Source: Methyloprofundus sp. (GTDB lineage Bacteria; Pseudomonadota; Gammaproteobacteria; Methylococcales; Methylomonadaceae). From it: 62,735 nucleotides of DNA. The stretch covers positions 1 through 62,735 of the forward strand of contig JAQRMR010000055.1 of assembly GCA_028599115.1 (NCBI GenBank). The letters run 5' to 3'. Of this stretch, positions 22,619 through 28,592 are shown piece after piece; position 1 is the stretch's first letter; every line of letters begins with the position of its first letter. The notes beneath the pieces were generated by a model. It did not search any database. It saw only the letters and a list, made by a program, of their open reading frames with translations, and had not been told where the DNA came from. Position numbers and translations under genes: made by a program.

Positions 22619-23260
22619 ATGGCAACACCATTAATTCAAATGGCATTAGATTCATTAGATTTCGACGCAACAGTAGCACTTGCTGAGCAAGTTGCAGATT
22701 CAGTTGATATCTTTGAAATCGGTACACCATGTATCAAGCACAATGGCATTAACTTAGTAAAAGAATTAAGAGCTAGATTTCCAGAGAAATTACTTTTAGT
22801 TGACCTTAAAACAATGGATGCTGGTGGATACGAAGCAGCACCTTTCTATGAAGCTGGTGCAGATATCTGTACAGTTCTAGGTGTTTCAGGTTTAGCAACA
22901 TGTCAAGGTGTTATCGGTGCAGCTAATGCAAACGGTGCAGAAGCTCAAATTGATTTAATCAACGTTGGCGACAAAGCAGCAGTATCAAGAGAATGTGTTG
23001 CAGCTGGCGCTCAAATCGTTGGTGTTCACACAGGTCTAGATGCACAAGCAGCTGGCGACACACCTTTCAATGACTTAGCATTAATTGCTGACCTTGGATT
23101 AGATGTACGTGTTTCTGTTGCTGGTGGTATTAACCAAAATACAGTTCAAGACGTAGTTCGTGCTGGCGCAGACATCATTGTTGTTGGTGCAGCTATCTAC
23201 GGTGCAGCATCTCCAGCAGAAGCTGCTCGTGAAATTCGTGAATTAGTAGACGCTGCATAA
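22619..23260 (+). CDS. hps: 3-hexulose-6-phosphate synthase (RuMP pathway)
   Basis: 213 residues, OMP-decarboxylase-like TIM barrel with the DLKTMD motif (D62, K64, D67) that holds the catalytic and metal residues. The enzyme condenses formaldehyde with ribulose 5-phosphate to D-arabino-3-hexulose 6-phosphate and needs Mg. Codons are unusually uniform and optimal-looking compared with neighbours (GGT, GCA, AAC, ATC), as expected for a very abundant protein. hpi follows after 14 bases. This is the diagnostic gene for RuMP formaldehyde fixation. Confidence 0.96.
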   Translation: MATPLIQMALDSLDFDATVALAEQVADSVDIFEIGTPCIKHNGINLVKELRARFPEKLLLVDLKTMDAGGYEAAPFYEAGADICTVLGVSGLATCQGVIGAANANGAEAQIDLINVGDKAAVSRECVAAGAQIVGVHTGLDAQAAGDTPFNDLALIADLGLDVRVSVAGGINQNTVQDVVRAGADIIVVGAAIYGAASPAEAAREIRELVDAA

Positions 23261-23274
23261 GGCGGAGATAGACT

Positions 23275-23820
23275 ATGTGGCAACAAGAAAATCAGCAATT
23301 AGTCGTTAATAAGATTTCAGAAATTCTTGATGCGACTGATCTTGCTTATGCAGAGCAAATGACTGCAATGTTCGATGATGCAAAAAGAATTTTTATCTCT
23401 GGAGCAGGTCGTTCAAAACTAGTCGGTAACTTTCTAGGCATGCGTTTAATGCATAGTGGTTATGATGTTAGCATGGTAGGTGAAATTGTTACTCCAAGTA
23501 TCAAAAATGGTGATTTATTAATCATCATTTCAGGATCTGGAGAAACAGAACAATTAGTAGCATTCACAAATAAAGCTAAAAGCGTGGGTGCTAAAATTGT
23601 TCTAATTTGTTCAAAAGAAAAATCAACCATTGGTGATTTAGCTGATGGTGTTTTTCAAGTTGGTAAACAAGACCTGTATCAAACAGTGAAAGGTATGCCA
23701 ATGGGAACAGTTTTTGAACTATCTACCTTATGTTTCCTAGAAGCTGTTGTTGCTCATTTGATTTGGGAAAAAGGTATCCCAGAAGAGAAAATGAGAGAAA
23801 GACACGCTAATATGGAATAG
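23275..23820 (+). CDS. hpi: 6-phospho-3-hexuloisomerase (RuMP pathway)
   Basis: 181 residues, one SIS domain: FISGAGRSKLVGNFLGMRLMH and IIISGSGETEQLV form the sugar-phosphate loops, and the C-terminal GIPEEKMRERHANME is typical of the family. It converts 3-hexulose 6-phosphate to fructose 6-phosphate. It is in an operon with hps, with GGAG before the ATG. A strong terminator follows immediately. Confidence 0.95.
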   Translation: MWQQENQQLVVNKISEILDATDLAYAEQMTAMFDDAKRIFISGAGRSKLVGNFLGMRLMHSGYDVSMVGEIVTPSIKNGDLLIIISGSGETEQLVAFTNKAKSVGAKIVLICSKEKSTIGDLADGVFQVGKQDLYQTVKGMPMGTVFELSTLCFLEAVVAHLIWEKGIPEEKMRERHANME

Positions 23821-23825
23821 CATTG

Positions 23826-23854
23826 AAAAACGAGCAGCTCTGCTGCTCGTTTTT
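23826..23854 (+). terminator. Intrinsic terminator after hps-hpi
   Basis: Stem AAAAACGAGCAGC (23826-23838) and its reverse complement (23842-23854) around a 3-base loop, continuing into a run of Ts to 23858. It separates hps-hpi from tkt, which therefore needs its own promoter or read-through. Confidence 0.9.
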
Positions 23855-23880
23855 TTTTCTGCTAACCAAAAAATTCAAAG

Positions 23881-23942: not shown

Positions 23943-25928
23943 ATGTCTTCGCGTAGAGAACTTGCGAACGCCATACGAGCTTTAAGCATGGATGCCGTAC
24001 AAAAAGCTAAATCAGGACACCCAGGCGCACCAATGGGGATGGCTGATATAGCAGAAGTATTATGGAATGATCATCTAAAACATAACCCAACAAACCCAGA
24101 GTGGGCAGATCGTGATAGATTTGTCTTATCAAATGGTCACGGGTCTATGTTAATTTACTCATTATTACATTTGTCAGGTTATGACCTGCCTATGGATGAG
24201 CTAAAAACATTCCGTCAACTACATTCTAAATGTGCGGGACATCCAGAATATAGCTATGCTCCTGGTATTGAAACAACAACGGGTCCTTTAGGACAAGGGA
24301 TTACGAACGGTGTTGGTTTTGCAATGGCTGAAAAGTTACTAGCAGACCAGTTTAACCGCCCTGGACATGATATCGTTGACCATAATACTTACGTATTCTT
24401 GGGTGATGGTTGTTTAATGGAAGGTATTTCTCATGAAGCATGCTCTTTAGCAGGTACATGGGGTTTAGGTAATTTAATTGCATTCTGGGATGACAATAAT
24501 ATCTCTATTGATGGTCACATTGATGGATGGTATACAGATGACACCGTAAGACGTTTTGAGTCATACGGCTGGCATGTTATTTCAGTTGATGGTCATGATT
24601 CAGATGCAATCAATGCTGCAATTGTTTTAGCTAAAGCAGTAAAAGACAAGCCTTCAATGATTTGTTGTAAAACAATTATTGGCTTTGGTTCTCCAAATAA
24701 AAGCGGTAGCCATGACTGTCATGGTGCGGCATTAGGTGATGAAGAAGTTGCATTAACACGTGAGCAACTTGGTTGGACCTCTGCTCCTTTTGAAATTCCA
24801 GCTGATGTTTATGCAGGATGGGACGCTAAAGCGTCAGGTGCAGATAAAGAATCAGCTTGGGACAAGAAATTTGCTGCTTATGCAAAAGAATTTCCTGAGT
24901 TAGCTGCTGAATTCAAACGTCGTATGGCGAAGGAATTACCTGCAAACTGGAAAGAAGCAACTGATGCAATCATCGCTGATACAAACGAAAAAGCTGAGTC
25001 TTTAGCTTCTCGTCAAGCATCACAAAAAACAATTGCAGCGTTAGCACCTGTACTACCTGAGTTCTTAGGTGGATCAGCTGATTTAACAGGGTCTAACTTA
25101 ACAAGCTGTGCAGATTTCAAACATGTAAGCGGTAAAGAGAACGGTAACTATATCTCTTACGGAGTACGTGAATTTGGTATGTATGCAATCATGAACGGTA
25201 TGGCTCTACACGGTGGTTTAATGCCATTCGGCGGAACATTCCACATGTTCTCTGATTATGCGAAAAGTGCATTCCGTATGGCTGCATTGATGAAAATTCG
25301 TACTGTTGCTGTCTTAACACATGACTCTATCGGTCAAGGTGAAGATGGACCAACGCATCAGCCGATTGAAAATACGTCAGCAATGCGTTTCATTCCTAAT
25401 ATGGATGTATGGCGTCCTGCTGATTCAGTAGAGGTTGCTGTTGCTTGGACTGCTGCTGTTGAGCGTTTAGATGGACCATCTAGCTTAATATTAAGTCGTC
25501 AAGGTATTCCAGGGCGTAAACATGATGCTGCTGATTTTGATGCAATGCGCAAAGGTGCTTATGTACTTGTAGAAGCTAAAGGAACTGCTGATATTGTTCT
25601 AATTGCAACAGGTTCTGAAGTTGACCTAGCTGTGAAAGCACAAGAAGCGCTTGCTGCTGATGGTGTTAATGCCCGTGTTGTTTCTATGCCGTCAACGAAT
25701 GTTTTTGATCGTCAAGATCAAGCTTACAAAGACAGTATATTAATTCCTGGCGTTAAACGTGTTGCAGTTGAAGCGGGTGTTACTGATTTCTGGCGCAAGT
25801 ATGTTGGGCTAGAAGGTGCAGTAGTTGGTATTGATACATTTGGTGAATCTGCACCAGGTGGAGTACTAATGGAGCACTTTGGTTTTACAGTCGCTAACGT
25901 TGTTAAAACTGTTAAAGAAGTACTGTAA
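23943..25928 (+). CDS. tkt: Transketolase
   Basis: 661 residues, full length. The thiamine-diphosphate site begins G154-D155-G156 ([14 protein letters not shown]) and ends in [22 protein letters not shown] at the N-terminus and [15 protein letters not shown] in the pyrimidine-binding domain are family hallmarks. In the RuMP cycle it interconverts fructose 6-phosphate, glyceraldehyde 3-phosphate and pentose phosphates to regenerate the ribulose 5-phosphate formaldehyde acceptor. It has an AGGAGAAG ribosome binding site. Two motif-repeat protein genes follow within 110 bases, preceded by an imperfect hairpin at 25974-26008. Confidence 0.96.
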
Positions 25929-26036
25929 TTTTAAAGTAAGCTAAGACTAGATGCGTTAAAGTATCTAACTGCAGAAAACTGCTGATAGAAAAAGCATCAG
26001 TGGTTTTCCGTTTCTTACGATAAATAGGTGAATTGC

Positions 26037-26669
26037 GTGAAAAAAAATAATTTAAAAAAAGGCTTATTTACTGCCTTATTACTTGTTAGCTCAGTTGTAA
26101 CAGCTGGCAATAAATATCCAGCAGCTGATTTTAAACCAACAGTTGTTTATCAAAATACTGACTATAAACATGCCGAGTCTGCTGCATCATTTGGTGAAAA
26201 AGCTCAGGATGATAGTAACTTTCCTGCAGCAACATATAAGCCGGAAGTTTTGTTTCATGATACTGAATATAAGCACAACACTAAAGTTGCTAATGTTCCT
26301 AACTCAGCAAGTGCAAGCTTTACTGATGACGCAGTAAGCACAAGCTCTGATGAATCTGGCGAAGCAAGCTCTGATGAGACTGTAAGTCCAATCCTAGCGC
26401 TAATTATTTTAGCGGTTGCTGTTTTCTTGTTTCGTAAAAAGTCAGGTTCTAAAGCTGCAGTAGATAATTCTGGTGAGTTAACTGGTGTTGCGAAATACTT
26501 ACAAAAAAAAGCTCCAAAGTTATCTGGCGTAGCTAAGTATCTAGAGACACATCAGCCAACACCAAAATCTGGTGTTGCTAAATATGTTGCAAAAAGAGTT
26601 GTTGAAGCAAAAAAAGCAGCAGCAGAAAAAACAACTGGTGTAGAAAAATATATGCGTAAAAAAGGATAG
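26037..26669 (+). CDS. Unrecognised membrane protein with periplasmic repeats and four cytoplasmic GVAKYL-type motifs
   Basis: 210 residues from a GTG at 26037, preceded by AGGTGA at 6-base spacing; an upstream in-frame GTG at 26028 overlaps that site. Residues 1-23 look like a signal peptide. Residues 26-45 and 61-80 are two copies of a 20-residue repeat, [YF]PAA[DT][FY]KP...[YF]xx[T]xYKH. After a Ser/Glu-rich linker there is one transmembrane helix (about 117-132) followed by RKK, so the C-terminus should be cytoplasmic. That tail carries TGVAKYL (149-155), SGVAKYL (163-169), SGVAKYV (178-184) and TGVEKYM (200-206) in Lys/Ala-rich, probably disordered sequence. I do not recognise the family. 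It is 3 bases from the next gene, which has the same motif, and lies between tkt and tal. Confidence 0.8.
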   Translation: MKKNNLKKGLFTALLLVSSVVTAGNKYPAADFKPTVVYQNTDYKHAESAASFGEKAQDDSNFPAATYKPEVLFHDTEYKHNTKVANVPNSASASFTDDAVSTSSDESGEASSDETVSPILALIILAVAVFLFRKKSGSKAAVDNSGELTGVAKYLQKKAPKLSGVAKYLETHQPTPKSGVAKYVAKRVVEAKKAAAEKTTGVEKYMRKKG

Positions 26670-26672
26670 AAA

Positions 26673-27323
26673 ATGGGGGTTTTATCAAAGATTTTTCCTA
26701 AAAAAGCAGTTGAGACAAATATTTATCGTACAGAAGCAAGTCCTAAAAAAAGGTCTAGTGTTGATGAATATCTCGAAACTCATAGTGCTAGTTCGCATAA
26801 GTCAAACTTAAGGTCTAAGAAATTAACTTGTGTTGACAGATATGTAAGTACTAAAAATGAGTCTGGAGTTGAATTGACTGCAGTGGAAAAGGATGAGATA
26901 AATTCTCGTATTACTGCAAGAATAAAACTGAGAAAATCTGAGGAGAGCTTAATGAGTGTTGAAGATAAAGAACTTAGTGGTGTAGCTAAATACGTTGAAA
27001 GCCAAAAAGAGCTAAGTGATGCGGCTGCATTAGATGTGCAACCTCTTACTGGCGTTGCTAAATATTTAGCAGCTATTATCAGTAATAAGCCTGTTGCGAC
27101 TGGTGTTGCTAAATATTTGTTGAATCGTACTGAAGCTAAGGTAAGTAGCGTAGACCGATATGTTACCAATAAAGCATTGGCAGATAAAAATAAACCTAAA
27201 GTTGTTATTATTCCTGATTCAAGCGTTACTAAGTATTTAGATGGTATTTCAACTATGCAAACAAGCCGCGTTGCTAAATATCTTGCCAAAAAAGTAGTTT
27301 CAGATAAACAAGTTGTTGCTTAA
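26673..27323 (+). CDS. Unrecognised cytoplasmic protein with eight GVAKYL-type motifs
   Basis: 216 residues with no signal peptide or membrane helix, and a good AGGA ribosome binding site. The sequence is low in aromatic and hydrophobic residues except for a motif [ST]xV[ADT][KRE]Y[LV] at 28-34 (SSVDEYL), 52-58 (TCVDRYV), 102-108 (SGVAKYV), 126-132 and 143-149 (both TGVAKYL), 158-164 (SSVDRYV), 183-189 (SSVTKYL) and 198-204 (SRVAKYL). A degenerate copy may lie at 69-75. The layout is that of a multivalent linker with short binding helices, as in EPYC1- or CsoS2-like scaffolds, but there is no sequence relation that I can name. It ends at a strong terminator. Confidence 0.78.
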   Translation: MGVLSKIFPKKAVETNIYRTEASPKKRSSVDEYLETHSASSHKSNLRSKKLTCVDRYVSTKNESGVELTAVEKDEINSRITARIKLRKSEESLMSVEDKELSGVAKYVESQKELSDAAALDVQPLTGVAKYLAAIISNKPVATGVAKYLLNRTEAKVSSVDRYVTNKALADKNKPKVVIIPDSSVTKYLDGISTMQTSRVAKYLAKKVVSDKQVVA

Positions 27324-27402
27324 TTAAGTTACTATTTGTCTAATCGCTTATATTTAATAGCTATCACTTCTGACATTGTTAGTGATAGCTGCTAAATACT
27401 TG

Positions 27403-27450
27403 AATCTATTTTCCTTAATGAATATTAAGGAAAATAGATTTTGTTTTTTA
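27403..27450 (+). terminator. Intrinsic terminator after the motif-repeat genes
   Basis: A 17-bp perfect stem (27403-27419 with 27424-27440), GAAT loop, followed by TTGTTTTTTA. A second hairpin (AGCTATCACT at 27359-27368 with 27381-27390) lies just before it. Transcription from tkt through the two repeat genes should end here. Confidence 0.85.
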
Positions 27451-27608: not shown

Positions 27609-28592
27609 ATGGCTAATTTATTAGATCAACTTAAAGCGGTAACAGTTGCAGTTGCGGATACAGGCAATATTGGAGCGATTAAAGAATTCACTCCTCGTGA
27701 TGCAACAACTAACCCTTCATTAATTACTGCTGCTGCACAAATGCCAGAATACCAAGGTATTGTTGATGATACTTTATCTGCTGCACGTGCAACTTTAGGT
27801 GCTACTGCAAATTCAAAAGAAGTTGCTGCATTAGCGTTTGATCGCTTAGCAGTTTCATTTGGTTTAAAAATTCTAGAAATCGTTCCACAACGTGTTTCGA
27901 CAGAAGTTGATGCGCGCTTGTCTTATGATACTGATGCAACAGTAGAGAAAGGCCGTGACCTTATTGCGCAATACAAAGCGGCAGGTGTTGATAGTGACCG
28001 TATCTTAATTAAAATTGCAGCAACTTGGGAAGGTATCCAAGCAGCTAAAATTTTAGAAAAAGAAGGTATTCATACAAACCTAACATTAGTTTTTGGACTA
28101 CACCAAGCGATTGCTTGTGCTGAAAATGGAATTACTTTAATTTCTCCATTTGTTGGTCGTATTCTTGATTGGTACAAAAAAGATACAGGTCGTGATTCTT
28201 ATGCGCCTGCTGAAGACCCAGGTGTTGTTTCTGTTACAGAAATTTATAATTACTACAAAAAATTCGATTTCAAAACTGAAGTTATGGGCGCAAGTTTCCG
28301 TAATTTAGGTGAGATCACTGAACTAGCAGGTTGTGATTTATTAACAATTGCTCCAGCATTACTATCTGAGCTACAAGCAACGGAAGGTGAGTTACCGCGT
28401 AAACTTGATCCTGTTGCTGCTAAAGCAATGGATATTGCTGAAATCAATGTTGATAAAGCAACATTCGAAAAAATGCATGCTGCTGATCCTATGGCAACTG
28501 AGAAGTTAGCTGAAGGTATTAAAGGTTTTGAAAAAGCATTAGAATCTTTAGAAGAACTATTAGCTAATCGTTTAGCTGAAATCGAAGCTTAA
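27609..28592 (+). CDS. tal: Transaldolase
   Basis: 327 residues, TalB type. The Schiff-base lysine is K135 in [16 protein letters not shown] is the N-terminal phosphate-side motif, and [15 protein letters not shown] follows. It transfers dihydroxyacetone between sedoheptulose 7-phosphate and fructose 6-phosphate, and in the RuMP cycle helps to regenerate ribulose 5-phosphate. It is separated from the upstream repeat genes by 285 bases with two terminator-like hairpins, so it probably has its own promoter or depends on read-through. It shares a downstream terminator with metG. Confidence 0.96.

Follow-up and report, generated by a model that had tools for sequence, protein, structure and literature searches.

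Gene Organization at the Locus

The window is a stretch of 62,735 nucleotides from Methyloprofundus sp. (GenBank assembly GCA_028599115.1, contig JAQRMR010000055.1, forward strand). It contains two small genes, P1 and P2, that lie between tkt and tal and downstream of hps and hpi. From the open reading frames and a reading of the sequence, the two genes encode 12 copies of a short motif, four in P1 and eight in P2. The genes and signals of the cluster are as follows.

22619..23260, + strand: hps, 3-hexulose-6-phosphate synthase, a candidate client (open reading frame; adjoins motif genes in both motif-bearing lineages)
23275..23820, + strand: hpi/hxlB, 6-phospho-3-hexuloisomerase (open reading frame; TIGR03127 at 192.6 bits, over the cut-off)
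23825..23855, + strand: terminator-like hairpin after hpi (pattern scan only)
23943..25928, + strand: tkt, transketolase (open reading frame; directly upstream of P1 in nearly all family members sampled)
26026..26031, + strand: Shine-Dalgarno sequence AGGTGA of P1 (read from the sequence)
26037..26669, + strand: P1, about 210 aa from the GTG, with a signal peptide, two periplasmic repeats, one transmembrane helix, and a predicted cytoplasmic Lys-rich tail with four motifs (open reading frame, sequence, 21-member alignment, AlphaFold2)
26673..27323, + strand: P2, 216 aa, without a signal peptide, with a short hydrophobic N-terminus (MGVLSKIF) and eight motifs (open reading frame, motif scan, AlphaFold2)
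27402..27441, + strand: terminator-like hairpin, 18 pairs followed by a T-rich stretch (pattern scan only)
27609..28592, + strand: tal, transaldolase, a candidate client (open reading frame; directly downstream of the motif gene in family f10 too)

The open reading frame caller begins P1 at 26028, and many homologues read V at both the 26028 and the 26037 positions. The GTG at 26037 is probably the better start because 26028 probably overlaps the AGGTGA, which is well placed for 26037. The earlier note on this DNA had implied the same GTG start, and the position of the Shine-Dalgarno sequence supports it. P2 begins 3 bases past the stop codon of P1, so the two genes are probably translated together. 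The hairpin at 27402-27441 would terminate a tkt-P1-P2 transcript.

Anatomy of P1 and P2

The periplasmic part of P1 carries two repeats of the YPAADFxP type. Its four motifs follow the consensus [ST]xVx[KR]Y[LVM]. Since the transmembrane helix is followed by RKK (positive-inside), the tail would be cytoplasmic, and the four motifs are predicted to lie on the cytoplasmic side of the membrane helix. Among the residues that never vary in the 21-member alignment of P1 are Y, P, and A in the periplasmic repeats, along with V and Y in every motif.

26115..26171, + strand: P1 periplasmic repeat 1, YPAADFKPTVVYQNTDYKH (invariant Y, P, A, and P in the 21-member alignment)
26220..26276, + strand: P1 periplasmic repeat 2, FPAATYKPEVLFHDTEYKH (21-member alignment)
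26385..26438, + strand: P1 transmembrane helix, then RKK (helix 121-138 in AlphaFold2; sequence)
26481..26501, + strand: P1 motif 1, TGVAKYL (motif scan, AlphaFold2)
26523..26543, + strand: P1 motif 2, SGVAKYL (motif scan, AlphaFold2)
26568..26588, + strand: P1 motif 3, SGVAKYV (motif scan, AlphaFold2)
26634..26654, + strand: P1 motif 4, TGVEKYM, within a conserved C-terminal TGVEKY[LM]R (motif scan, alignment, AlphaFold2)
26754..26774, + strand: P2 motif SSVDEYL (motif scan; the sole motif without a predicted helix)
26826..26846, + strand: P2 motif TCVDRYV (motif scan, AlphaFold2)
26976..26996, + strand: P2 motif SGVAKYV (motif scan, AlphaFold2)
27048..27068, + strand: P2 motif TGVAKYL (motif scan, AlphaFold2)
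27099..27119, + strand: P2 motif TGVAKYL (motif scan, AlphaFold2)
27144..27164, + strand: P2 motif SSVDRYV (motif scan, AlphaFold2)
27219..27239, + strand: P2 motif SSVTKYL (motif scan, AlphaFold2)
27264..27284, + strand: P2 motif SRVAKYL (motif scan, AlphaFold2)

The earlier note had placed four motifs in the tail of a membrane protein and eight in the next protein, between transketolase and transaldolase, and all of them are present. It had also called the motif heptad-like. The motif does have seven residues, but its copies are irregularly spaced, 14-50 residues apart. A heptad or coiled-coil repeat was thus rejected, and the pattern is that of a linear motif repeated on linkers. When shuffled 20,000 times each, P1 and P2 averaged 0.001-0.003 motifs with a maximum of 1, so the 12 observed copies are far beyond chance. 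A search of the window's own genome turned up no multi-motif protein besides P1 and P2.

AlphaFold2 was run with the P1 and P2 alignments, and the mean pLDDT was about 60, which is low confidence. Eleven of the 12 motifs were each modeled as a separate short helix that begins just after the S/T, and the linkers were of low confidence. The motif helices are at residues 153-160, 167-174, 182-200, and 205-212 in P1, and the helices of P2 are at 53-61, 103-119, 127-137, 144-153, 159-172, 184-195, and 199-215. They are rich in Lys and Arg and have a hydrophobic V-Y-L face, with a net charge of 0 to +4 and a mean hydrophobicity near zero. N-capped docking helices joined by flexible linkers would be expected to look this way.

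Searches of Families, Structures, and Literature

Neither P1 nor P2 had a match over the cut-off in Pfam, NCBIfam, or PHROGs. A search of solved structures by sequence gave nothing meaningful, and no DNA-binding or enzyme domain was found in either protein. The earlier note had recognized neither family, and no assignment with another role turned up in the three family collections. P1 reached 12.5 bits for a PEP-CTERM/PEF-CTERM sorting signal, against an NCBIfam cut-off of 23, and its transmembrane helix is internal and not at the end of the protein; this class was rejected. PF14960 (ATP_synth_reg) was not matched by P1 or P2 in the Pfam search. Two motif proteins of other genomes scored 20.6 and 17.2 bits for it over the motif (16-20 residues). 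Both scores are under the gathering cut-off of 25 bits, so membership was rejected, and the similarity is probably convergence. Literature searches with GVAKYL and other motif strings returned no relevant paper that prints the motif, and they returned no direct report of membrane-bound Hps or of a RuMP scaffold in methanotrophs.

Distribution and Linkage to RuMP Genes

Relatives of P1 are present in 119 of the 121 genomes of the window's family. Across the order, a P1 match was found in 118 of 151 genomes and HxlB in 122 of 151. Where a P1 match shares a contig with a listed hxlB, it lies within 6 kb of that gene in 79 of 80 cases. Most of the remaining P1 matches are on other contigs than hxlB, and several of these lie at the end of a contig. 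In almost every family locus sampled, P1 comes immediately after tkt, and the motif proteins of the relatives carry from 3 to 18 copies of the helix.

A class-wide sample comprised 369 genomes. Six of them have HxlB over the cut-off, and exactly these six match the P1 profile, three being Methylococcales (f1, f4) and three from f10; no motif was found in the other 363. In a phylum sample, only the window's own genome had the motif, and none was found in 348 other genomes, including 14 with HxlB-like proteins. The presence of HxlB-like proteins without the motif across the phylum sample argues that the motif is not a general feature of RuMP enzymes. Judged from the sequences sampled, it is a feature of two gammaproteobacterial methylotroph lineages.

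The linkage takes several forms. In f4 there is a rearranged order, P1-hps-hpi (L103, L110). Elsewhere a P2-like gene lies between two copies of hps (L071, L072), and second copies of the cluster read hps, tkt, a periplasmic-only gene, and a P2-like gene (L076, L077). One locus (L108; G010:C1:3510000-3529900) has hps-hpi-tkt-P2-like twice in tandem, with copies that look identical. At this locus a third hps-hpi-tkt is followed by P1, and the array is read as a recent amplification of the RuMP cluster together with its motif gene. Four genera of f4 (g38, g40, g42, and g44) have hps/hxlB with the motif undetected, and one of these genomes, G167, has tal. A scaffold built on the motif would thus not be needed for RuMP as such.

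Small secreted proteins that consist solely of YPAANFxPKVIY repeats, in 2-3 copies and ending in KVIYP, were also seen (L068:6234-6467, L069:3844-4248, and L070:4155-4481). In L068 and L069 their genes follow ABC-transporter-like genes. They are possibly paralogues of the periplasmic half of P1.

The Motif Compared With pmoA in Two Further Families

Family f10, which is probably Methylophagaceae, has the motif in 52 of 57 genomes. The gene order is hps-MOTIF-tal in 29 of the 30 loci inspected. The gene between hps and tal encodes a motif-only protein (open frames of 85-233 aa, 3-7 motifs) whose N-terminus is hydrophobic and conserved (MSxKGFxASICxFFKGLFSS type). From their sequences, the motif-bearing proteins look membrane-linked, P1 by its transmembrane helix and the f10 protein by this N-terminus. 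In the one exception to the gene order (L143; G587:C210), a Methylococcales-like P1 fragment is followed by tal-fba. The genome has 5% contamination, and L143 is possibly a stray contig. No pmoA was found in the three f10 genomes tested.

Family f6 matches Methylothermaceae. Three of its genomes (G125, G139, and G142) have pmoA, hps, and hxlB, and no motif was found in them. G125 and G142 have a motif-less relative of P1 made up of the periplasmic and membrane parts only. The RuMP genes of this family are dispersed: in the six f6 loci that were read, hps-hpi has no tkt, tal, or motif gene in the surrounding 12-18 kb. Transaldolase has been reported missing in Methylomarinovum tepidoasis IN45 and M. 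caldicuralii (PMC10950024). P1 relatives with periplasmic repeats and a transmembrane helix but without the motif (L106:8223-8864, L107:8034-8681, and L132:1007-1660) were read as well. In f6 such relatives lie between dsbC-like and mutS genes, neighbors that hint at no periplasmic partner. Only one f6 genome was seen with a motif-bearing P1 and P2 (L102; G136:C1). Its P1 has the same length as, and a nearly equal score to, the P1 of G122 (f3), so this contig may be misbinned.

Families with close pmoA relatives thus have the periplasmic and transmembrane half even where the motif is missing (f6, f2), and from these sequences this half appears to follow the pmoA-bearing families. The motif occurs without pmoA in f10, and pmoA occurs without the motif in f6. 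The motif therefore appears to follow the RuMP gene cluster and not pMMO, methane oxidation, or internal membranes.

The earlier note had asked whether the pair always accompanies RuMP genes across Methylococcales. Several lineages that bear RuMP genes, among them several f4 genera, lack the motif. Homologues lying mostly away from RuMP genes, or in non-methylotrophs, would have counted against the scaffold according to that note. Instead, the homologues are linked to hxlB (79/80 of those on the same contig) or stand between hps and tal in f10 (29/30), and in the sampled genomes no copy of the motif turned up beyond the two methylotroph lineages.

Candidate Clients

The commonest neighbor of the motif genes is hps, and the next is tal. 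In a tree of Hps (unrooted, from a modest sample), the lineages without the motif are strongly supported as separate from those with it; the exception is L128, a motif-less row on a long branch that lies next to the motif-bearing group. In the Hpi tree, by contrast, f4 genomes with and without the motif are mixed. Neighbor frequency and the two trees together make Hps the better candidate client and Tal the second, and Hps and/or Tal would be the likeliest clients. This evidence is correlative and comes from a modest sample, and some of the linkage may be due to common descent of the cluster or to its transfer.

A Possible Membrane-Tethered Scaffold

Methylotrophs run a large flux through formaldehyde and yet keep its free level low. 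How they do so has long been asked, and to our knowledge little is known of the spatial organization of their enzymes. Of the readings considered, a membrane-tethered multivalent scaffold for the formaldehyde-fixing RuMP enzymes, formed by P1 and P2, has the best support. We give this reading about an even chance of being correct. It draws on anatomy, conservation, linkage, and distribution that are read from sequence, and on helices and a topology that are predicted.

P1 would be the anchor. It would sit in the cytoplasmic membrane, and presumably also in the internal membranes that methanotrophs derive from it, and would display its four helices to the cytoplasm. P2, with eight more helices on flexible linkers, would be the cross-linker. 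Each helix, with an S/T N-cap and V, Y, and L on one face, would dock one site of a multimeric client, and many weak contacts could gather the RuMP enzymes on the membrane's cytoplasmic face, in a layer or a condensate. Formaldehyde is made by the periplasmic methanol dehydrogenase, and the enzyme layer would lie opposite this source. The hexulose phosphate synthase of Methylococcus was reportedly described as particulate in work of the 1970s (a 1974 purification), which would fit a membrane scaffold.

P1 and P2, present in nearly every sampled genome of the window's methanotroph family and with a reduced form in another RuMP lineage, are a concrete and deletable candidate for a natural formaldehyde-capture scaffold. 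The motif could also serve as a short peptide tag for recruiting enzymes in engineered users of methanol or methane.

Motif Proteins Away From RuMP Genes and Other Readings

The motif also occurs away from RuMP genes. A protein of 280-315 aa with a C-terminal Cys/His domain has several copies in four methanotrophs (G010, G028, G043, and G084). Members of this family have 3-5 motifs (L138:4323-5168, L139:4144-5070, L140:3875-4768, and L141:4481-5425), an amphipathic N-terminus, and the domain pattern CQA.T.KG.QC...VC.QH.N..F.P. In L139 a gene for a T6SS sheath-domain (VipA/VipB) protein is nearby, and in L140 one for a Zeta-toxin-domain protein. In f10, ChpA/PilL-type chemosensory kinases have several motif copies in the linker next to or between their Hpt domains (L135:3-2552, L136:3748-9894, and other f10 genomes), and in G213 the variant TSVERYI is common to the RuMP-linked protein and the ChpA kinase. 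The multivalent RuMP-linked scaffold proposed in the earlier note is thus supported in part: its predictions at the sequence level hold, but proteins without a RuMP link carry the motif too.

The Cys/His-domain protein and the ChpA kinases may dock on the same enzyme, or the direct partner of the motif may be a more general hub. The hub could be a positioning or polar protein, or the motif itself. P1 and P2 would then serve to position the RuMP cluster within the cell, and the kinases and the Cys/His-domain protein would use the same hub to other ends. Their multi-copy motifs fit this, and so does the variant shared in G213, which is consistent with one common partner but could also stem from repeat copying. 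Since the multi-motif pattern of the window's own genome is limited to the RuMP-linked pair, and the class and phylum samples are without the motif beyond the two methylotroph lineages, a general hub is possible but doubtful.

P1 could also be a transmembrane metabolon bridge. Its periplasmic YPAADFxP repeats would engage the methane/methanol oxidation machinery, its cytoplasmic helices together with P2 would hold Hps, Tal, and partners, and formaldehyde would be captured as it crosses the membrane. The separable halves fit this, with the periplasmic and membrane half found in pmoA families (f6, f2) and the motif half with RuMP clusters even without pmoA (f10). We regard such a bridge as unlikely.

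Tied to RuMP by co-transcription only, the pair could be an accessory operon factor with another role, such as a regulator, an assembly or chaperone-like factor, or an envelope protein. Families and structures assign no function, and linkage alone is no proof of interaction. However, the linkage persists through rearrangements and duplications and in two orders, the repeats are multivalent, and the domain searches point to neither a DNA-binding protein nor an enzyme, which makes this reading quite improbable.

P1 and P2 could also organize the internal membranes of methanotrophs, with luminal YPAADFxP repeats and cytoplasmic helices that zip membrane sheets. How these membranes are built is unknown (PMC9445010), P1 spans the membrane with conserved parts on both sides, and its periplasmic-plus-transmembrane half is found in families with close pmoA relatives. 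Nevertheless, the linkage is to RuMP genes, and the motif helices have a low mean hydrophobicity and a variable charge. Family f10 carries the motif without pmoA in the three genomes tested, and the motif is absent from pmoA-bearing f6 and some f4 genomes. For these two last reasons this was rejected as the main reading, and it is held to be very improbable. Less probable still are amphipathic helices that bind lipid on the membrane surface without a protein client: the Lys/Arg-rich helices with a V-Y-L face and the similarity to PF14960 (below the cut-off), the family of a small membrane subunit in mitochondrial ATP synthase, would suit them, but V and Y are invariant in every motif, which suggests a specific pocket, the net charge of 0 to +4 and a mean hydrophobicity near zero do not, and the RuMP linkage is left unexplained.

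Comparison With Known Systems

The proposed membrane-tethered scaffold of P1 and P2 can be compared with known organizers of carbon-fixing enzymes. EPYC1, the Rubisco linker of the pyrenoid, repeats a short helical motif several times along a low-complexity chain and serves a carbon-fixing enzyme. P1 and P2 are likewise predicted to repeat a short helical motif along a low-confidence chain, and they are encoded beside carbon-fixing genes. Unlike EPYC1, they are prokaryotic and have a different motif and pathway, and P1 is membrane-spanning with periplasmic repeats; database searches of Pfam, NCBIfam, and solved structures gave no relevant match. CsoS2 is a repeat-bearing scaffold of the carboxysome, and P1 and P2 are also repeat-bearing and encoded among carbon-fixation genes. 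However, P1 would be tethered to the membrane rather than to a shell, and no CsoS2 or shell family was matched in Pfam or NCBIfam. The neighbors are hps, hpi, tkt, tal, and fba, and no shell genes were noted when the open reading frames of the examined clusters were read by eye. The likeness to EPYC1 and CsoS2 is one of architecture, and these searches gave no sign of homology. The motif proteins also differ in architecture from the DAPIT-type mitochondrial ATP synthase subunit of PF14960.

Engineered assemblies of RuMP enzymes include Hps-Phi fusions and scaffoldless assemblies (cited in PMC8879981). They share the aim that we infer for P1 and P2, the capture of formaldehyde beside its source. 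The engineered assemblies are man-made, whereas P1 and P2 would, if the inferred role is true, be a natural and widely conserved counterpart.
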